From Pseudorhodobacter sp. PARRP1 (GTDB lineage Bacteria; Pseudomonadota; Alphaproteobacteria; Rhodobacterales; Rhodobacteraceae): 32,884 nucleotides of DNA. Made by a program: the position numbers and the translations under genes. Below are positions 1 to 30,029 of the stretch, in pieces. The notes under the pieces were generated by a model. The model was not told the origin of the DNA. It made no database searches and saw nothing but the letters and a program-made list of their open reading frames with translations. Location of the stretch: assembly GCA_002256245.1 (NCBI GenBank), contig NKIU01000008.1, positions 117,333 through 150,216 of the forward strand. Reading direction: 5' to 3'. Position 1 is the first letter of the stretch. Each line of letters opens with the position of its first letter.

Positions 1-125
1 ATATGCTGTCGATGGGCGTGCGGGTGGTGGGCGAAGGCTTGGCGCTGGATATTGTCGATGCGTTCCTGAGCGCCGAATTCGAGGGTGGTCGCCATGCCAC
101 GCGGGTGGAGATGATCGAGCGTTAG
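1..125 (+). CDS. rpiB: Ribose-5-phosphate isomerase B, 3' end only
   Basis: Only the last 40 codons are present; the gene enters from the left edge and ends at a TAG at 123-125. The translated tail reads MGVRVVGEGLALDIVDAF, then FEGGRHATRVEMIER, which matches the conserved C-terminus of RpiB/LacAB-type sugar-phosphate isomerases (GARVVG, IVDAWL and FEGGRHxxRV signatures). The family interconverts ribose-5-phosphate and ribulose-5-phosphate in the cytoplasm. The active-site residues lie upstream of the window and cannot be checked. Assignment rests on the C-terminal signature alone. It is followed by the structured repeat at 151-364 and a convergent MORN-repeat gene. Confidence 0.85.
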   Translation, partial: MLSMGVRVVGEGLALDIVDAFLSAEFEGGRHATRVEMIER

Positions 126-150
126 GGCGAAGCGCTTATGCGTGGTGATA

Positions 151-364
151 TGTGGGCGGAAACAGGAAACGCATTGCGTTTCCCCGCCCAAGGGTGCGGT
201 TTGGCTCTGAAGTCCCGTCAGCGAGAAACCCTGTTAGGCCAGTGCCCGACCCGGCGGGCGAGAAGCGCCCGCCATTGGCGGGTCGGGCGCTGGCCGGGCC
301 TTAGGGGCCCGGCGGTTACAGAGGCACCCGCACCGTGTGGCGAAGGCGATGGCCTTCGCCAGAT
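151..364 (+). repeat. 214-bp structured intergenic repeat, copy A
   Basis: This stretch aligns without gaps to the reverse complement of 6884-7097, with about 30 mismatches in 214 bp (about 86% identity by hand count). It contains four stem-loops: GAAACGC/GCGTTTC near 166-182; GGCGGGCG/CGCCCGCC around loop AGAAG near 253-273, enclosed by CCCGACC/GGTCGGG; GCCGGGCC/GGCCCGGC near 293-313; and GGCGAAGGC/GCCTTCGCC at 339-360. Mismatches between the copies fall mainly in loops and linkers. It sits between rpiB and the convergent MORN gene, where it could also act as a transcription end. No convincing protein is encoded. I do not recognise it as a named family. Confidence 0.85.
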
Positions 365-420
365 GGCTCAGCGGATTTGCGCAAGCGCCGATTAGCGGCC
401 CGCCCCATGTAGATTGCGAC

Positions 421-1905
421 CTATGGATTGGCCACAGGCGCGGGCGCAGGGCTTTGCGGCGCTGCACCTTCTGGCGCTGCGGTGCCATCGGCGGGTGCAA
501 CGCTCGCCCCCGGCAGCGGGCCAACCAGCACCCCGGCTTTCCACATGCCTTCCGACACCTCGCCGCCCTTATAAACCAGCTTGCCCGCGCCCTCGCGCTT
601 GCCTGCGACAAAGCCGCCCTCATAGCCATCGCCGGTGGGATAGGTGGCAATGCCATTGCCCTGCATCGCGCCCGCCACCCAATCGCCGGAATAGGTGAAG
701 CCATCGGGCTGCGACAGCGCGCCCTTGCCATCGCGCAGACCAGCTTTGAAATTGCCTTTATACACCGTGCCATCGGCCCAGGTCGCGGTGCCGACACCTT
801 CGCGCACACCGGCTTTCCATGCGCCTTCATAGCGGAAACCATCGGGATAGGTCATGGTGCCGATGCCGTCGGGTTTCTCGGCAACCAAGGCCCCGGTATA
901 GGTCGCCCCGTTGGCGTAGGTGGCGGTGCCTTGGCCGGTGATGTCGCCCTTCACCCACTGGCCGGTATAGCTGGAGCCATCGGCATAGCTGATCTTGCCG
1001 GTGCCGTCGGGCTGATCGGCCTTGAAGCCGCCCTCGTAGGTAGAGCGGTCGGCATAGACCATGCGGCCCTGACCCTGCATCTGGCCCGCAACCCAATCGC
1101 CGTCGTAGCTGCTGCCATCCTTGCCGGTGAACTTGCCCTTGCCGTCGCGCTTGTCGGCCTTGAAACTGCCCTTGTAGATATCGCCATTGGCATAGGTTTC
1201 GGTGCCTTTGCCAACGCGCAGGCCCTCGACGAAATCGCCCTCATAGACATCGCCATTCGGCTGGGTCAACTTGCCCAAGCCGTTGATCTGGCCGTCTTTC
1301 CACGCGCCGACATAGGTGGTCTTGTTGGGCATGGTCAGGGTGCCGGTGCCTTGGCGCGCGCCTTTCACCAGCATTCCGGTGTAGGTGGTGCCGTCGGGAT
1401 AACGGATCACCCCCTCGCCCTGCTTTTCGCCCATCGTCCAGTTGCCGGCATAGCTGTAGCCGTTGGCATCGGTCAGCTTGCCCTTGCCGTCATGCTTGCC
1501 ATCGCTGAAGCTGCCGACATAGACCGAGCCATTGGCATAAGCGGCGCGGCCTTGGCCTGTCATCTTGCCGCCGCGCCAATCGCCCTCATAGGTGCCGCCG
1601 TCGGCGAAGGTGATCTTGCCCTTGCCCTCGGGCTTGCCTGCGGCAAAGCGCCCCTCATAGACCGAGCCGTTGGGATAGCGCGCGATGCCGGTGCCGCGGA
1701 TTTCCCCGCCCACCCACTCGCCCGAGTATTCGTAGCCGCTGGGCAGTTTGTAGGTGCCGGTGCCGTCTTGCAGGCCGTTGACGAAGGTGCCCTCATAGAC
1801 CGAGCCGTCGTCATACTGCTTGGTGATGACCTCGCCCGCGTTTTGTGCGAGGGCTGCCCCTGCCAGAGCCACCAACATTGCCGCCGCCAAGCCTGTGTTC
1901 CGCAT
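421..1905 (-). CDS. Exported MORN-repeat protein (about 19 repeats)
   Basis: The 494-residue product starts with a typical signal peptide (MRNTGLAAAMLVALAGAALA, then Q), so it is probably exported to the periplasm or surface. From about residue 30 to 450 it is one run of about nineteen 23-residue MORN units with the pattern YxGxWxxGxxxGxGxxxxxdG; units alternate between types ending in F and W after the YxG core. The tail after about residue 465 is rich in Ala and Pro, suggesting a flexible linker. MORN repeats form elongated beta-hairpin stacks used in protein or membrane contacts; no catalytic domain is visible, so the role is unknown. An AAGGGA ribosome site lies about 10 bases before the ATG. 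The gene is divergent from nadE with 124 bp between starts, and convergent with rpiB. Confidence 0.9.
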   Translation of the reverse strand: MRNTGLAAAMLVALAGAALAQNAGEVITKQYDDGSVYEGTFVNGLQDGTGTYKLPSGYEYSGEWVGGEIRGTGIARYPNGSVYEGRFAAGKPEGKGKITFADGGTYEGDWRGGKMTGQGRAAYANGSVYVGSFSDGKHDGKGKLTDANGYSYAGNWTMGEKQGEGVIRYPDGTTYTGMLVKGARQGTGTLTMPNKTTYVGAWKDGQINGLGKLTQPNGDVYEGDFVEGLRVGKGTETYANGDIYKGSFKADKRDGKGKFTGKDGSSYDGDWVAGQMQGQGRMVYADRSTYEGGFKADQPDGTGKISYADGSSYTGQWVKGDITGQGTATYANGATYTGALVAEKPDGIGTMTYPDGFRYEGAWKAGVREGVGTATWADGTVYKGNFKAGLRDGKGALSQPDGFTYSGDWVAGAMQGNGIATYPTGDGYEGGFVAGKREGAGKLVYKGGEVSEGMWKAGVLVGPLPGASVAPADGTAAPEGAAPQSPAPAPVANP

Positions 1906-2029
1906 TGCATCATCCCTTGTATCGCCACGACCCTAGCTTAGGCCGCGACCTGCTGACAAGTCGCCCGCTTGGCCTTTCGCTTGGGTGTGAACGTGCTAGA
2001 ACCGTGCAAACCCTAGCCCGGAGTATGAT

Positions 2030-3688
2030 ATGGCCGCGACGTTCCGCCTGACCTTGGCACAGTTGAACCCCACCTTGGGCGCCATCGAGGCCAATGTGGC
2101 GCAGGCCTATGACGCCTGGGTGCAGGGCCGCGATGCGGGCGCGCAGATGGTGGCGCTGACCGAGATGTTTATCACCGGCTATCAGACACAAGATCTGGTG
2201 ATGAAACCGGCGTTCTGGCGCGCTGCGATGCAAGCGGTAGAGGCTTTGGCCCTGCGGATCACCGATGGTCCGGCGCTGGGGATCGGTGGGCCGTGCTGGC
2301 GCGACGGGCAGTTGTATAACGCCTATTACGTGCTGGAGGCGGGCAAGATTGCCGCCACCGTGCTGAAGCACGAGTTGCCCAACAGCGATGTATTTGACGA
2401 AAAGCGGGTGTTCGCCTCGGCCCCGCCGCAGGGGCCGTATCGCGTGGGGCCGTTGCGCATCGGCTCGCCGATTTGTGAAGATGCTTGGCATTCCGAGGTC
2501 TGTGAGACGCTGGCCGAGACCGGGGCGCAGATTTTGCTGGTGCCGAATGGCTCGCCCTATCACCGGGGCAAACCATCGGTGCGCACCAATCTGATGGTGG
2601 CGCGGGTGGTTGAGACGGGGCTGCCGCTGGTTTACCTCAATATGATCGGGGGCCAGGATGATCAGGTGTTTGATGGCGCGTCGTTTGTGCTGAACCCCGG
2701 TGGGGTGTTGGTGGCACAACTGCCGCAGTTTGACACCTGCATCACCCATGTCGATTTTGAGGAAACCGACGACGGCTGGCGCGCGCTGCCCGGCATGATG
2801 GAGAAGATGCCGATTTCCTACGAGGCCGATTACCGCGCCATGGTGATGTCTTTGCGGGATTATCTGGGCAAGACCGGGTTCAAGAAAGTGCTGCTGGGGC
2901 TTTCGGGCGGCATCGACAGCGCCATCGTGGCGGCGGTGGCTGCCGATGCGATTGGCCCCCAGAACGTGCGCTGCGTGATGCTGCCGTCGCGCTATACCTC
3001 GGCCCATTCGCTGGAGGATGCAGCACAGGTGGCGCGGGCGTTGGGGTGCCGGCTCGATACCGTGTCGATCTCGGGCGCGCAGGAATCCGTCTCGCGCGCG
3101 CTGGAACATCTGTTTGAGGGCACCGCAGAGGATGTCACCGAAGAAAACGTCCAGTCACGCCTGCGCGGGCTGTTGTTGATGGCGATGTCGAACAAGTTTG
3201 GCGAGATGTTGCTGACCACCGGCAATAAATCGGAAATGGCGGTCGGGTATTGCACGATCTACGGCGATATGAATGGCGGCTATAACCCGCTGAAAGACCT
3301 GTATAAAACCCGCGTGTTTGACACTTGTCGGTGGCGCAATGACAACCATCGTGCGTGGATGCTGGCCCCCGCAGGCGTGGTCATTCCGCCGCGCGTGATC
3401 GACAAGCCGCCAAGTGCCGAGTTGCGCCCCGATCAGAAAGACGAAGACAGCCTGCCGCCCTATCCGGTGCTGGATGCGATCCTTGATGGGTTGGTGGAAC
3501 AGGAATTGTCGGTGGCCGATCTGGTCGCACGCGGCTTTGACCGCGCCACGGTGAAGAAGGTCGAGCATTTGCTTTTTATCAGCGAATACAAACGCTACCA
3601 ATCCGCCCCCGGCACCCGGCTGACGCGGCGCGCATTTGCCGGGGATCGGCGCTATCCGATTGCCAACCGCTGGCGCGATAACGCCTGA
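2030..3688 (+). CDS. nadE: Glutamine-dependent NAD+ synthetase
   Basis: This 552-residue enzyme makes NAD+ from deamido-NAD+ (nicotinate adenine dinucleotide), ATP and glutamine in the cytoplasm. The N-terminal half (about 1-265) is a nitrilase-type glutaminase with the expected triad: Glu45 in ALTEMF, Lys113 in LKHELPN and Cys149 in GSPICEDAW. The C-terminal half is the ATP-pyrophosphatase synthetase domain with SGGIDS at 292-297 and [12 protein letters not shown] further on. Length is normal for bacterial two-domain NadE. The ATG at 2030 has GGAG six bases upstream. The stop codon shares its final A with the start of the YnfA-type gene, so the two are probably translated together. Confidence 0.96.
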
Positions 3689-3999
3689 TGCCGCTTTATA
3701 TCCTTGCCGCCGCGTTAGAAATCGCCGGCTGCTTTGCGGTGTTCAGTTGGTGGCGCGGCGCGTCTGCGCTGTGGTTGCTTCCGGCGGGATTGGCGCTGGC
3801 GGGGTTTGCGTTTGTGTTGGCACTCGCCCCGGCGACCCATGCGGGGCGGTCCTATGCGGCCTATGGTGGCGTCTATATCGCGGCGTCATTGCTGTGGCTT
3901 TGGCTGGCCGAGGGCACGCGGCCCGATTGGGCGGATGTGGCCGGGGCCGGACTGGCACTGGCCGGGGCGGCGGTGATCCTGTTCGCGCCGCGCGGATGA
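3688..3999 (+). CDS. YnfA/UPF0060 family small membrane protein
   Basis: The 103-residue protein is almost entirely hydrophobic, with about four predicted membrane helices (roughly 3-20, 28-47, 58-73, 84-100). It carries the family signatures [13 protein letters not shown] and [15 protein letters not shown]. The YnfA/UPF0060 family resembles half of a drug/metabolite-transporter protein and has been linked to small multidrug resistance-like export. Its substrate here is unknown. The start ATG overlaps the nadE TGA by one base, so it is likely a second gene of a nadE operon. It is followed by a 311-bp structured non-coding region. Confidence 0.88.
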
Positions 4000-4310
4000 T
4001 GGCAGGGCGCGGGCGGTTGTTTTTTGCCCGATTTGGCCCGCGACAAATCGGGCCGCGCCTGCCTGCCCCTTGGCAGGCGCGTTGCCGCGCCCGCCCAGGC
4101 AGGCGCGCCCCGATTTTCAGACCGACGGTTTGTGGCACCACCCCCCTTGCTCAACGCCTTTCAGGCTTATGAGCAACGAACCGGAAAACGCTCCACCGGA
4201 GCGTTTTCTTTCGGTTCGGGGAAGAAAGATGCCACTCTGACCTCTCCGGCAGCCCGCGCTGTTCCTGCTTTTACTCGCTCGCCTCAGGCTGTGCCTCGGC
4301 CAGATCTGAC
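4000..4310. other. 311-bp non-coding region rich in inverted repeats
   Basis: No convincing gene is seen between the convergent YnfA-type gene and the exported protein gene at 4311. The stretch contains stacked inverted repeats: GCCCGATTT (4026-4034) with AAATCGGGC (4045-4053); GCCTGCC (4061-4067) with GGCAGGC (4072-4078); CGCGCCTGCCTG (4054-4065) with CAGGCAGGCGCG (4096-4107), which competes with the previous stem; and TTGCTCA/TGAGCAA (about 4147-4176) around GCCT/AGGC. It ends in a strong terminator hairpin. It could be the structured 3' end of the nadE transcript or a small RNA; the sequence does not decide. Confidence 0.5.
4177..4218. terminator. Nested terminator hairpin between convergent genes
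   Basis: GAAAACGCTCC (4184-4194) pairs perfectly with GGAGCGTTTTC (4198-4208) around a three-base ACC loop. An outer CGAACCG/CGGTTCG pair encloses it. The arms carry A-rich and T-rich outer ends, so RNA from either strand ends in a run of U. This fits a bidirectional Rho-independent terminator for the nadE-ynfA transcript (+) and the 4311-4901 gene (-). Confidence 0.75.
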
Positions 4311-4901
4311 CTATTCGATGATTTCGACGGTGTTCTCAAACTTGCCCAGTTTTTCCGAATTCTTGTCGCGCAGGGTGGTTTCCAGAATGTAGCGTCCCGG
4401 CGTGATGCCATCCAAAGTATAGGTCAGATTGGCGTTGAATTCGTGCATCTTGCGGCGCGAGGTCAGGTCAAGATTGGTCACCGAGGGGATTTCGCCCAAA
4501 ACCTCGCCAGCCTCGGTCATCACCTTCAGATCGACGATGAAGCCGATGGTGTAAAGCCCGTCACCGCCCGAGCCAAAGCCATAGCCGTAGGGCTCGGCAT
4601 AAATCAGGATGGGTTCGCCGATCTTGTATGTCTCATTCGGGCGCGGATTGTAGATGCCGACACCTGCGGCGGGCTCTGCCACCAGCAATGCCTCGCGGAT
4701 CCCGATATCGGCGCCCGAATCCCAGACCGTTGCCATCAGGCTGTCTGCGGCCTCTAACGCGCCAGGGGTGTCGCCTGCGGCCATCAGGGTTTCAATCTCG
4801 GTGGCCTTGTCTGCGACCGGCCCCGCCACAGCGCCGCCCGCAAGGCTTGTGGCAAGAATTGCCCCGCACAGGGCAATCCGGGTGACGGTAGATGCAAACA
4901 T
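4311..4901 (-). CDS. Exported protein of unknown function
   Basis: I do not recognise this 196-residue protein. It has a clear signal peptide (charged start, hydrophobic core IALCGAILATSLAGGAVAG, cleavage about residue 27). A helical stretch of about 45 residues (ADKATEIETLMAAGDTPGAL...) follows. From about residue 80 onwards the sequence looks like an all-beta domain (YNPRPNETYKIGEPILIY, Gly/Tyr-rich turn YGYGFGSGGDGLY, ending TPGRYILETTLRDKNS). Such an ending resembles secreted beta-sandwich domains, but this is only a resemblance. The start has GAGGAG at good distance. It lies 116 bp downstream of the metallopeptidase gene on the same strand and probably has its own promoter. Confidence 0.75.
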   Translation of the reverse strand: MFASTVTRIALCGAILATSLAGGAVAGPVADKATEIETLMAAGDTPGALEAADSLMATVWDSGADIGIREALLVAEPAAGVGIYNPRPNETYKIGEPILIYAEPYGYGFGSGGDGLYTIGFIVDLKVMTEAGEVLGEIPSVTNLDLTSRRKMHEFNANLTYTLDGITPGRYILETTLRDKNSEKLGKFENTVEIIE

Positions 4902-5017
4902 GGCTCAACTCCTCAATTTCAGATCAAAATCAGCACTCTGGCGGTGATGATAGAAAGATACGTCCCCCGCTCCAAGCGCACAAGCGGTGCGGGCGTGCGA
5001 TTGTTCACGCGCACCAG

Positions 5018-5428
5018 TCACTCCCACCACGGATCAATCGCTGCGATGTCCGCGTCGCTCCAGCCAAAGTGATGCGCAAGTTCGTGCACCAGAACGTGGC
5101 TCACCAGCTCTTGCAGGGTGACATTGCCGCGCTCGATCCATTCATCCAGGATCGGGCGACGGAACAGCCAGATCAGATCGGGGTGCAGCGGCTGATCCGA
5201 GACGGATTTCTCAGGCAGCGGCGTGCCTTCGTAAAGCCCGGTCAACTCAAACGGGTTCTCCAGCCCAAGTTCGGCCAGCATGGCGTCGCTGGCAAAATCC
5301 TCGATGCGCAGCGCCACCTGCCGGGCGGCGGCGCGGTAGGGCGGCGGCAGGCCTGCGATGGCCGCCTCGGCAAGCGCCGCGATGTGATCGGCATCCGGCG
5401 CGGTCAGATCGGCATAAGGTGTTGTCAT
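5018..5428 (-). CDS. Zincin-like metallopeptidase family protein
   Basis: The 136-residue protein ends with the zinc-binding motif HELAH (residues 115-119) followed by HFGWSDADI. This is the arrangement of the small bacterial 'metallopeptidase family' (Zincin_1/DUF1025-like), in which an acidic residue a few positions after HExxH may complete the site. The N-terminal part contains FELTGLYEGTPLPEKS and DLIWLFRRPILDEW, also typical of that family. Its substrate is unknown and there is no signal peptide, so it is probably cytoplasmic. No strong ribosome site precedes the ATG. The gene is divergent from gltX with 95 bp between starts. Confidence 0.82.
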   Translation of the reverse strand: MTTPYADLTAPDADHIAALAEAAIAGLPPPYRAAARQVALRIEDFASDAMLAELGLENPFELTGLYEGTPLPEKSVSDQPLHPDLIWLFRRPILDEWIERGNVTLQELVSHVLVHELAHHFGWSDADIAAIDPWWE

Positions 5429-5523
5429 GGCGGCAGACTAGCCAAGCGTGCGAAAGCCGCAAGGCGATAACTGGACAAACAGCAAGCCATATGACAGGGA
5501 AGGGCGGTTGCAGGAGAGCTGAG

Positions 5524-6858
5524 ATGACCGATCGCCCCACCATTACCCGTTTCGCCCCGTCGCCCACCGGATATATCCATGTCGGCAACCTGCGCACGGC
5601 GCTGATGAACTATCTGATCACCCGCAAGGCGGGCGGCACGTTCATTCTGCGGCTGGACGATACCGATCAGGAACGCTCGAAACAGGAGTATATTGACGGG
5701 CTGCTCTACGATCTGGAATGGCTGGGCCTGCATTGGGACCGGATCGAGCAGCAATCGCTGCGCTTTGACCGCTACCGCGAGGCGGCCGATCAGTTGCGCA
5801 GCGCAGGCCGGTTCTATGAATGCTTCGAGTCGCCGGTCGAGTTGGACCTGAAGCGCAAGAAGCAGCTGAACATGCACAAACCGCCGGTCTATGACCGCGC
5901 CTCGCTGCGCATGACCGATGCCGAAAAGGCCCGCGCGCGCGAAGAAGGCCGGGCGGGCTATTGGCGCTTCCTGCTCGATCAACAGCGGATTGAATGGAAC
6001 GACGGCATCCTCGGGCCGATCTCGATTGACGCGGCTTCGGTGTCCGATCCGGTGCTGATCCGCGCCGATGGGCAGATCCTTTACACCTTCGCCTCGTCGG
6101 TCGATGATATCGACATGGGCGTGACCTCGATCGTGCGCGGGGCGGATCATGTCACCAACACCGCGACGCAAATCCAGATCATGCAGGCGATGGGCGGTGT
6201 GCCCCCCAGCTTTGCGCACCATTCGCTGCTGACCGGACCGCAGGGCGAGGAATTGTCGAAACGCTTGGGCACCCTCAGCCTGCGCGATCTGCGCGCGCGC
6301 GGGGTCGAGCCGATGGCGTTGCTGTCGCTGATGGCACGGCTGGGCTCGTCCAAGCCGGTGGAACTCGCGTCCTCGATGCAGGATCTGATCGACGGCTTTG
6401 ACATCGGCAGCTTTGGCGCCGCCCCCACGAAATTCGACGCCGAAGACCTGTTCCCGCTGACCCGCGCGCATGTGCAATCGCTGCCGCTGGCGAATGTAGC
6501 CGAGAAAATCGCAAGCTTGGGCGTGCCTGCCGACAAGGCCGAGTTGTTCTGGAACGTCGCCAAAGCCAACATCACCGTTCTCGCCGATCTTGAGGGCTGG
6601 TGGGTGCTGTTCCGCGATGGTGCCACCCCGCTGGTCGATGACGAAGACCGCGAGTTTGTGGCGCAAGCCTTTGATCTGCTGCCCGAAGGCCCGTGGACCA
6701 CAGCGACGTGGAGCGCATGGACCAACGCGGTGAAAGAGGCGACGGGCCGCAAAGGCAAGGCGCTGTTCCGCCCCCTGCGCCGCGCCGTCACCGGCCTTGA
6801 TGCAGGGCCAGAGATGGCCGACGTGATGCCGCTGTTGCAGAAACGACCAAGTCTTTAA
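5524..6858 (+). CDS. gltX: Glutamyl-tRNA synthetase
   Basis: The product (444 residues) charges tRNA-Glu with glutamate; Glu-tRNA is also the first precursor of tetrapyrroles, and so of the corrin ring made by the downstream genes. Class I signatures are present: HVGN (19-22) in FAPSPTGYIHVGNLRTAL, and the KMSKS-equivalent LSKR (244-247) in GEELSKRLGT. The anticodon-binding half is compact, so the protein is slightly shorter than the E. coli enzyme (about 470). The frame is open to 5419, but the ATG at 5524 is chosen because AGGAGA sits six bases upstream and family homology begins there. Alphaproteobacteria often carry two gltX paralogues; which one this is cannot be told here. Confidence 0.95.
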   Translation: MTDRPTITRFAPSPTGYIHVGNLRTALMNYLITRKAGGTFILRLDDTDQERSKQEYIDGLLYDLEWLGLHWDRIEQQSLRFDRYREAADQLRSAGRFYECFESPVELDLKRKKQLNMHKPPVYDRASLRMTDAEKARAREEGRAGYWRFLLDQQRIEWNDGILGPISIDAASVSDPVLIRADGQILYTFASSVDDIDMGVTSIVRGADHVTNTATQIQIMQAMGGVPPSFAHHSLLTGPQGEELSKRLGTLSLRDLRARGVEPMALLSLMARLGSSKPVELASSMQDLIDGFDIGSFGAAPTKFDAEDLFPLTRAHVQSLPLANVAEKIASLGVPADKAELFWNVAKANITVLADLEGWWVLFRDGATPLVDDEDREFVAQAFDLLPEGPWTTATWSAWTNAVKEATGRKGKALFRPLRRAVTGLDAGPEMADVMPLLQKRPSL

Positions 6859-6883
6859 GGCTGATCGACACTCACCTTTGATA

Positions 6884-7097
6884 ATCTGGCGAAGGCCATC
6901 GCCTTCGCCATGCGGTGCAGTGGCCGCTGAAACCGCCGGGCCTCAAAGGCCCGGCCAGCGCCCGACCTAGCCTTGGCGGGCGCTTCTCGCCCGCCGGGTC
7001 GGGCACTGGCCTCAATGGGTTTCTCACTGACGTGACTTCAGGGGCAGGCCGCTCACGCGGTCGGGGAAACGCCATGCGTTTCCTGTTTCCGCCCGCA
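6884..7097 (-). repeat. 214-bp structured intergenic repeat, copy B (inverted)
   Basis: Read on the minus strand this is the second copy of the repeat at 151-364: same 214-bp length, no gaps, about 86% identical. A block of more than 30 identical bases covers the CCCGACCCGGCGGGCG...CGCCCGCC stem. All four hairpins are kept, including GGCGAAGGC/GCCTTCGCC and GCCGGGCC/GGCCCGGC, whose loops differ (TTAGG in A, TTTGA in B). It fills most of the 335-bp gap between the convergent gltX and cobS genes. The remaining bases, 6859-6883 and 7098-7193, show nothing recognisable. Confidence 0.85.
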
Positions 7098-7193
7098 CCG
7101 GGGCGCGTGCGTGTCGCGCGCGCTCGCCGCTTGGACTCGCCATTGGTCCCAGAATTCAATGGTTTGGTAGGCTAGCCCCCGGCTTTGGCCTGC

Positions 7194-7949
7194 TTAGCGC
7201 GCCAAAACCAGCCAGCCTGCAATCTCGGCCAGTTGCTGCATCGCGCCCAGAACATCCCCGCTTTGCCCGCCGATTTGCCGCAAAGCGACGCGGGCGAAGA
7301 TCAGTTGCGTGGCGGCCATTGCGACAAAGACCCAAAGGGCCACGGGCCAAGGCAGCAAAACCACCAAGCCAACACCCGCCAGCGCCAGCCCCGCCATTGC
7401 CCGCGCAAAACTGGTTCCTGCGGCGGATTTCCCCATGCCGTCTTGCCGCGCGGCGGGCATCCACAGCAGGGCCAACCCCAACCCGGCGCGGCTTGCCATT
7501 GCCAAGCCGACCAGCGCCAGCGGGGCAAGGCCGGGCTGCTGCGCGGCCAAAATCGCCAGTGCCTGCCAGCGCAGGCCCAGCGACAGGATCAGCGCCAGAC
7601 CGCCATAGCTGCCAATCCGGCTGTCGCGCATGATCTCCAGCTTGCGGGCGCGGTCGCGGCCGCCGCCAAAGCCATCGGCACAGTCGGCGAGACCGTCTTC
7701 ATGCAGGCCGCCCGTCGCCAAAATGCTGGCCGTCAGAGCCAATCCCGCCGCCAGCGCAGGCGCGACACCCAACGCCAAGGCCCCGGCCAGAACCGCCGCC
7801 GCAATGCCGCCCACCAGCGCGCCCGCAATGGGAAACGCCCAGACCGCAGCACCAATCGGCGGCGCTTCGGCCATCTGCCCCGCAGGCAGGCGGGTCAGCA
7901 GCATCACCGCCAACTGCACCTCTGCCACGCGGGCGCGAAAGGGGGTCAT
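7194..7949 (-). CDS. cobS: Adenosylcobinamide-GDP ribazoletransferase (cobalamin synthase)
   Basis: This 251-residue integral membrane enzyme joins adenosylcobinamide-GDP to alpha-ribazole (or its phosphate), the last assembly step of adenosylcobalamin. The acidic signature GGLHEDGLADCADGFGGG lies at 80-97 and RDSRIGSYG at 108-116; both are diagnostic of the CobS/CobV family. The rest is alternating hydrophobic helices. The name follows the Salmonella scheme; the Pseudomonas denitrificans name is cobV, and it is unrelated to the chelatase subunit CobS. It is the last gene of a minus-strand cobU-cobT-cobS operon, and its ATG overlaps the cobT stop by four bases. Confidence 0.95.
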   Translation of the reverse strand: MTPFRARVAEVQLAVMLLTRLPAGQMAEAPPIGAAVWAFPIAGALVGGIAAAVLAGALALGVAPALAAGLALTASILATGGLHEDGLADCADGFGGGRDRARKLEIMRDSRIGSYGGLALILSLGLRWQALAILAAQQPGLAPLALVGLAMASRAGLGLALLWMPAARQDGMGKSAAGTSFARAMAGLALAGVGLVVLLPWPVALWVFVAMAATQLIFARVALRQIGGQSGDVLGAMQQLAEIAGWLVLAR

Positions 7950-13472: not shown

Positions 13473-13546
13473 CCACGCCGCCCCGGACCTGATCCGGGGC
13501 CTCGTGGGCGGGGGTGAGGCCCCGGATCAAGTCCGGGGCGGCGTGG
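13473..13546. repeat. Long palindrome (REP-like element / bidirectional terminator)
   Basis: A 31-base arm at 13473-13503 pairs with 13516-13546 with a single mismatch, around a 12-base loop. The core CCCCGGACCTGATCCGGGG lies in the left arm; its partner reads CCCCGGATCAAGTCCGGGG. It occupies the gap between the convergent bluB and cobQ genes and could stop transcription in both directions, although it has no T run. From general knowledge, CCCCGGATCAAGTCCGGGG-like palindromes are abundant between genes in many alphaproteobacteria, so this is probably one copy of a genome-wide repeat. No other copy is present in the window. Confidence 0.8.
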
Positions 13547-15920: not shown

Positions 15921-15949
15921 TTGACAAGGGGCGCGGTTGTGCCATGAGG
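15921..15949 (+). promoter_or_regulatory. Predicted promoter of riboswitch-led cob operon
   Basis: A perfect -35 hexamer TTGACA (15921-15926) is followed, after 17 bases, by a weak -10 at 15944-15949 (ATGAGG). The expected start of transcription, about 15955, coincides with the first base of the riboswitch P1 stem. The position supports the call more than the -10 sequence does. Confidence 0.55.
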
Positions 15950-15954
15950 TGGGT

Positions 15955-16130
15955 TGCGCTGGTTCCTGTTTATGACAGGCGAAGAGGGAATGTGAAAGGG
16001 GGCGACCCCGAAAGCTGCCGCCCCCGCGACCGTGACCGGAGAGGTTGCCCGAGGCCACTGGAGCAATCCGGGAAGGCGGGCCGCCGTGGGGGAAACCCCG
16101 GATCCGCAAGCCGGGAGACCTGCCAGCGCA
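15955..16130 (+). ncRNA. Cobalamin riboswitch 1
   Basis: The element carries the conserved blocks of the AdoCbl-type riboswitch in order: GGTTCC, GAAGAGGGAAT, GCTGCCGCCCCCGCGACCG, GCCACTGG, GGGAAGGCGGG, and the B12 box AGCCGGGAGACCTGCC at 16109-16124. A perfect 8-bp P1 stem closes it: TGCGCTGG (15955-15962) with CCAGCGCA (16123-16130). It precedes the DUF1636-cobW-cobN operon, which should therefore be shut down when adenosylcobalamin is plentiful. A terminator-like hairpin lies 40 bases downstream. Confidence 0.95.
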
Positions 16131-16170
16131 TGTGACTGAACGGGCGAACGGGGTGTTTCGCAACCAGCAG

Positions 16171-29759: not shown

Positions 29760-29788
29760 TTGACCGGGGGCGGGTATTGGTCAACTGA
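29760..29788 (+). promoter_or_regulatory. Possible promoter of riboswitch 2
   Basis: TTGACC (29760-29765) is a good -35 match. A -10 at about 29783-29789 (AACTGA or ACTGAT) is weak. The implied start near 29795 matches the left end of the riboswitch, which is the main support. Confidence 0.35.
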
Positions 29789-29795
29789 TAAAGGC

Positions 29796-29984
29796 GCATG
29801 GTGTCCTGAAAACGCAAAGCGTCTGGACTGAAACGAGAATGGGGAACGGGTGGACCAATCGGCACCCCAAGCCTCAGCCGCCCCCGCGACTGTATGCGGC
29901 GAGCGTGCTTCCAAACTGCCACTGGCCGCAAGGCTGGGAAGGCGGAAGCCCGCACCGACCCGCAAGCCAGGAGACCGGCCCTGC
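29796..29984 (+). ncRNA. Cobalamin riboswitch 2
   Basis: Conserved AdoCbl-riboswitch blocks are found in order: GTCCTG, GAAACGAGAATGGGGAAC, CCTCAGCCGCCCCCGCGACTG, GCCACTGG, GGGAAGGCGG, and the B12 box AGCCAGGAGACCGGCC at 29965-29980. The closing P1 stem is weak, unlike riboswitch 1. It precedes the CbiM-like permease gene. After it, CCGTC (30001-30005) can pair with GACGG (30012-30016) beside the GGAG ribosome site, so translational control is plausible. Confidence 0.94.
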
Positions 29985-30029
29985 AAAGAAACGCAAACAA
30001 CCGTCGGGTGTGACGGGATGGAGACTAAC

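Follow-up and report, generated by a model that had tools for sequence, protein, structure and literature searches.

Within the window, by which we mean the whole analysed stretch of 32,884 nucleotides from contig NKIU01000008.1 of Pseudorhodobacter sp. PARRP1, a 214-nt unit occurs twice in opposite orientation between converging genes, and it belongs to a family of non-coding intergenic elements, structured and mobile, that is found in some Rhodobacteraceae. Copy 1 is located on the plus strand at 151-364 (core at G000:C5:117485-117693), between a gene ending at the TAG at 122-124, which is presumably RpiB-like, and the convergent MORN gene (421-1905) that ends at 421. Copy 2 is located on the minus strand at 6884-7097, between the convergent genes gltX (stop codon at 6856-6858) and cobS (7194-7949), and it extends outward as far as the gltX stop codon at 6856. 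The names MORN, nadE, ynfA, and gltX stem from a preliminary description of the DNA, cobS was named in the follow-up analysis, and the gene calls were made with a codon-usage script written for this analysis.

When 151-364 is compared with the reverse complement of 6884-7097, the two arms align without any gap and are identical at 184 of 214 positions (86%), whereas none of 2000 shuffled versions of the arm exceeded 83 identities. The mismatches affect 4 of the 106 stem positions and 26 of the 108 other positions. The preliminary description had reported a gapless 214-bp inverted repeat of about 86% identity, had placed both copies between convergent genes, and had located the differences mainly in loops and linkers. 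The shuffling control and the gene calls at both sites agree with the first two statements, and the distribution of mismatches shows that the third was right as well. Both arms also fold far better than dinucleotide-shuffled controls, with z-scores of -7.56 and -6.13 and with 0 of 200 shuffles as good in either case.

The core comprises about 210 nt with four hairpins in the 5' to 3' order P1, a linker of about 45 nt, P3, P4 immediately thereafter, a linker of about 25 nt, and P5, and both linkers change fast. P1 (153-190 in copy 1, from alignment A1 and RNAalifold; 7058-7095 in copy 2) consists of an outer stem, a five-base bulge, and an inner hairpin. P3 (237-295 and 6953-7011) is the long central hairpin with an internal loop on its 3' side and was delineated by the alignment, RNAalifold, and covariation, and P4 (296-310 and 6938-6952) and P5 (338-361 and 6887-6910) were defined by RNAalifold and covariation. 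All hairpins are on the plus strand in copy 1 and on the minus strand in copy 2. RNAalifold weakly predicted a stem P2 that would join the two linkers over a long range, but such a stem is not supported overall, as the left and right linkers of a copy show hardly more pairing than swapped linkers (10 of 132 copies in the best 5%, p = 0.09); a few copies (L182-L185) appear linker-paired by eye.

The inverted arrangement of the two copies had also raised the idea of an inversion module, in which recombination between the copies flips the MORN-nadE-ynfA-gltX block (365-6883). While the 86% inverted repeat is in line with this idea, the block is colinear with cobS in all seven relatives that carry all segments (G001, G002, G004, G005, G007, G009, and G014), and about 60 copies of the element exist elsewhere, which makes inversion by this pair hardly credible.

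A search for further copies, as suggested in the preliminary description, was successful both in the own genome and in other genera. The own genome contains about 60 copies, including the two arms in the window, and these belong to at least two subfamilies. A DNA search of this genome gave 79 matching pieces, covariance model R1 (built from 34 copies, alignment A1) gave 84 matches at E <= 0.01 with antisense and short ones included, and the broader covariance model R2 gave 63 matches at E <= 1e-5, a few of them possibly antisense or short. The whole-genome model searches scored only the best candidates of each genome (150 for the R1 and R2 counts, 17 for the class sample, 6 for the long-form survey), and the E-values, which come from a short calibration, are rough. 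R2 matched 42 times in Rhodobacter capsulatus SP108, 31 times in R. viridis, 49 times in G243 (presumably Frigidibacter albus SP32), and at least 150 times in each of G311 and G334, one of which is Rhodobacter sp. SGA-6-6 and the other of which bears tandem arrays. These arrays are found in G311 at L113 3-889 (3.7 copies with a period of 239) and at L114 1762-2500 (3.1 copies with a period of 238). The bearers outside the own genome include R. capsulatus SP108 and DSM 1710, R. viridis JA737, Rhodobacter sp. SGA-6-6, and several metagenome-assembled genomes. The long form was detected at E <= 1e-15 in 11 of 394 genomes of the family (about one genome per genus, best 6 candidates each), and R1 matched at E <= 1e-3 in 97 of 295 family genomes, many of them by the P3 part alone. 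In a class-wide sample with partly listed families, 2 of 142 genomes matched among the best 17 candidates each, namely the own genome and, partially, one genome of the same family. Clusters also occur in the own genome, with three copies within about 800 bp at L057 3504-4316 and two head-to-head copies, one of them truncated, at L066 3007-3298. Several Rhodobacter contigs of metagenome-assembled genomes terminate in or near copies of the element.

The stems of the element are maintained by compensatory changes. For this analysis, we used a set of 111 sequences, comprising 16 own copies, 58 rows chosen from 98, and 37 from 80 (the source of these 37 was a search of 53 of the 80 listed loci), as well as a diverse subset of 52 of these sequences (alignment A4). 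In the subset, 276 cells had changed on both sides of a pair, in comparison to 81.5 +/- 7.3 in shuffles (0 of 500 as high) and to 33 to 76 when the pairing partners were slid, and 91.3% of the cells were paired. Two or more Watson-Crick types occurred at 27 of 57 pairs in the 111 sequences, and whole stems were exchanged between subfamilies. In the 34 own copies of alignment A1, which were taken from 41 own-genome places after removal of 7 partial or odd ones, terminal branches carried 60 changes on 106 stem sites versus 266 on 74 linker sites, and internal branches carried 5 versus 96. The resulting stem/linker ratios are about 0.16 on terminal and about 0.04 on internal branches, and as the stem constraint is thus weaker on the terminal branches, some decay after insertion is visible.

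It was in principle possible that each element is a gene for its own trans-acting small RNA, present in many copies. The conserved covarying fold of 210 nt and the tandem arrays would suit such a gene. However, a sigma-70-like promoter was found at neither copy (a single match to this promoter type, the only one searched, lies at 6080-6108 within 1-7300, with 1.7 expected), the copies hug stop codons, and the two halves of the element favour opposite strands, as described below. We therefore regard a small RNA gene as unlikely.

The genomic location of the copies is highly biased. For the context count, we curated 58 own-genome places by hand from the DNA and R1 searches, and these comprised 36 convergent, 20 tandem (co-directional), and 2 divergent gene pairs, in comparison to 15, 96, and 36 among 147 control pairs in the same loci (p = 1e-13 for the convergent excess and 2e-4 for the divergent deficit). 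In other genera, 34 convergent, 28 tandem, and 8 divergent pairs were counted (n = 70, after 4 of 74 places with no gene on one side had been left out), versus 39, 137, and 62 of 238 control pairs. The copies sit directly behind stop codons, mostly between convergent genes. Their spacing is often uniform, as 10 of the 58 own copies begin 37-39 nt past a stop codon and 10 of 58 finish 28-29 nt ahead of one, and at the R. capsulatus loci L198, L209, L227, and L246 the core is about 10 nt away from a stop codon at each end. Such a location would also be expected of a classical intrinsic terminator that is repeated by chance, but neither copy in the window contains a terminator-like site, and four hairpins in 210 nt far exceed what a terminator needs, which renders this explanation very unlikely.

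The comparison of related genomes indicates that the copies are mobile. At the gltX-cobS site, the element is absent from all seven genus mates compared, which have another short hairpin there, and at the L020 locus it is absent from all five relatives compared, with a different insert of about 240 bp in G001. Conversely, G010, G011, and G013 have a copy or a remnant in a co-directional gene pair, which is presumably fabA-fabB, where the own genome has none. G007 shares three element sites with the own genome. At one of them, the copy has the same orientation and is nearest to its counterpart, whereas the copies at the two others are oppositely oriented, are different subfamily members, and are closer to other own copies (the own copy of the site ranks 17 and 3 of 54). 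In-place inversion of single elements at these two sites is therefore less likely than separate insertion or replacement. R. capsulatus SP108 and DSM 1710 have orthologous copies at L198. Where R. capsulatus holds the whole element at L198 6225-6433, R. viridis (L345) retains only a P1-like hairpin. Spread by plasmids or phages is not supported either, as plasmids gave only partial P3-like matches (24 records) and phages none.

The ends of the element point to the same conclusion. Most copies of own-genome subfamily 1 extend to imperfect terminal inverted repeats of the form TA-R-NNNN-GATCGACATTCAC. With a threshold of 8 of 13 letters, these repeats are found at 26 left and 25 right ends of 34 subfamily-1 copies, and at both ends in 20 of them. 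The TA is at position -7 in 13 of the 26 left and 8 of the 25 right repeats, and it often lies within a stop codon. Copy 2 is an example, as its plus-strand repeat at 6856-6875 consists of the TA of the gltX stop codon TAA, followed by AGGCT and GATCGACACTCAC, with 12 of 13 repeat letters and the TA at -7. The empty sites are too diverged to read a target duplication. In the own genome, the terminal-repeat motif occurs at 37 sites, versus 3 for the reversed pattern, and about 8 of these are beside known copies; the sites away from known copies may represent isolated ends of the element, a parent transposon, or matches in coding sequence. The preliminary description had offered a structure under selection and a non-autonomous mobile element as alternatives. 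The covariation of P1, P3, P4, and P5 far above the controls and the slower change of stems than of linkers support the former, the dispersed copies, empty sites, and imperfect terminal inverted repeats with TA support the latter, and the evidence is in favour of both together. Neither of the outcomes named there as refuting, a lack of further copies and a lack of covariation, was observed.

To address the question of which nucleic acid is under selection, we made use of the fact that a stem that acts in RNA tolerates G.U but not A.C, and that the two are swapped when the opposite strand is read. In the own copies, P1 and P3 together contained 21 G.U and 2 A.C cells, whereas P4 and P5 contained 1 G.U and 10 A.C cells (Fisher p = 5e-6). 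Changes from Watson-Crick pairs to G.U versus A.C, counted by parsimony on one FastTree tree of the 111 sequences, were 26:9 in P1, 55:14 in P3, 3:13 in P4, and 4:20 in P5 (binomial p = 0.006, 7e-7, 0.02, and 0.0015). A mutational strand bias is an unlikely source of this contrast and was dismissed, as the transitions in the two linkers are balanced (239:224 and 144:138; 46:62 and 30:32 in the own copies). These counts suggest an RNA-level constraint in which the halves of the element would be used on opposite strands. We tentatively consider a two-faced RNA element, although we would not yet favour it, in which selection would act on the left half (P1, P3) in RNA of one strand and on the right half (P4, P5) in RNA of the opposite strand. 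In this way, one mobile insertion would provide each of the two converging genes with a structured 3' end of its mRNA. If true, and with tens to hundreds of copies, such an element would remodel the 3' ends at a substantial share of the convergent gene pairs of a genome. The opposite G.U preference of the halves is a hint of two-strand function that can be obtained from sequence alone and could be applied to other repeats.

Taken together, we give roughly even chances to the explanation that the element is a mobile unit similar to repetitive extragenic palindromic (REP) sequences, which would enter at TA, often in stop codons, and would then be retained as its hairpins shape the mRNA 3' ends of both neighbours. 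Judging from the repeats, the spacing, and the empty sites, entry would occur at TA sites and often at the TA of a stop codon, which would leave the neighbouring gene intact, and transposition would probably be carried out by a TA-targeting transposase acting in trans. Once behind stop codons, the element would be retained for the action of its hairpins at the RNA level, with P1 and P3 acting in the transcripts of one strand and P5, less surely P4, in those of the other. As 3'-end structures, the hairpins might block exonucleases and limit read-through between the converging genes. As no U-tract terminator was predicted in either copy, the hairpins more likely act by blocking 3' exonucleases, perhaps together with Rho, in the way that has been proposed for REPs.

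Several observations weigh against this explanation, among them this lack of a predicted U-tract terminator at 151-364 and 6884-7097. No transposase was identified for the element, and some copies are within co-directional gene pairs. With respect to the ends, shuffled flanks reached the terminal-repeat threshold in 145 of 680 cases, the repeat fails at 8 left and 9 right ends of the 34 copies, and none was seen by eye in other genera. With respect to the strands, the preference is independent of the direction of the neighbouring genes, as 22 copies with only minus-strand neighbours still showed 31 G.U versus 2 A.C in P1 and P3. Column-by-column counts are weaker than pair-by-pair counts (50:34 in P1, 75:49 in P3, 8:17 in P4, and 41:47 in P5), and the result for P4 depends on the pairs counted, with looser pair borders giving 10:11 in the largest group. 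In addition, DNA hairpins likewise accommodate G.T better than the alternative mismatch.

The main rival, to which we assign a lower but still considerable probability, is a purely selfish miniature transposon whose hairpins serve only transposition, as DNA or single-stranded DNA, and for which gene ends are harmless sites. The terminal repeats with TA and the stop-codon spacing in the own genome, the empty sites in relatives, the widely differing copy numbers among species, the tandem arrays in G311, the different subfamily members in opposite orientation at the two sites shared with G007, and the indifference of the strand preference to gene context all agree with it. It does not explain well, however, that even on terminal branches the change in stems is only about one sixth of that in linkers, or that the halves differ in G.U tolerance while the linkers are unbiased. 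Moreover, a search of 8 element-bearing genomes for the Y1 transposase (RAYT type, PF01797) found none in the 7 copy-rich genomes other than the own genome, and in the latter a single weak match (22.7 bits), at a distance of tens of kb from the copies on the same contig. As the element is present in the laboratory organism R. capsulatus, the distinction between a parasite and a role at mRNA 3' ends is directly testable.

As a rule, dispersed repeats in bacteria are short palindromes or miniature inverted-repeat transposable elements (MITEs) in decay, whereas this element is long, has multiple hairpins with stems covarying across genera, and is present in some genomes in 150 or more copies, placed behind stop codons. 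As described for REPs and bacterial interspersed mosaic elements (BIMEs), there are many palindromic intergenic copies, mainly downstream of genes, between convergent or co-directional genes, with a suspected action in RNA (PMC3733652). The same source gives REPs a length of 20-40 bp and GTAG or CGTC tags, with RAYT transposases for the GTAG type. Unlike REPs and BIMEs, the element is a unit of about 210 nt with four different covarying hairpins and no constant tag, as 32 of 132 cores contained GTAG and 55 contained CGTC, without a fixed position at the hairpin edge; GTAG was mostly found halfway along linker 1. Like MITEs of the TA type, such as the IS630-linked RUP (PMC2229807), the element is short, non-autonomous, and dispersed, with terminal inverted repeats and TA ends. 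Unlike these, it has an interior under structural selection, its insertion into stop codons is prominent, its terminal repeats were found only in own-genome subfamily 1, and no parent element was identified. Caulobacter CIR, as reported in reviews that cite Chen and Shapiro (2003), are likewise long intergenic repeats of alphaproteobacteria, but they are defined by the GANTC methylation site, which occurred 7 times in the 132 cores versus 59 times in shuffled copies.

Membership in CIR, REP/RAYT, or an Rfam family was rejected on the basis of the GANTC counts, the tag and transposase tests, and the Rfam scans. In the window, the latter gave only two cobalamin riboswitches above the gathering threshold (15943-16141 and 29782-29997), and the best sub-threshold matches at copy 1 were far below the cut-off. 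Short hairpins of the P3(-P4) type occur in other Rhodobacteraceae, among others on Phaeobacter plasmids, with matches in 24 plasmid records. They have the central hairpin in common with the element but are devoid of P1 and P5, and no Rfam name was obtained for them in a scan of 20 loci. No description of the element was found in searches of an open-licence library. By position and suspected function the element thus resembles REPs and BIMEs, by its ends it resembles TA-type MITEs, and the family is apparently unnamed.

Further features of the window were observed in passing. Copy 1 may adjoin a synteny break (1-364), as none of the listed matches in genus mates has the presumably RpiB-like gene next to the MORN gene; among these matches, it was found only in G012, on a different contig. 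A second, unrelated dispersed repeat of about 200 bp is located at 4017-4225 and occurs elsewhere in the own genome and in G001, G004, G005, G007, G009, and G012. At 13473-13546, there is a near-perfect hairpin with 31-bp arms (97%), and its GCCCCGGACTTGATCCGGGGC-type palindrome is found beside several copies of the element and in many places in genus mates.

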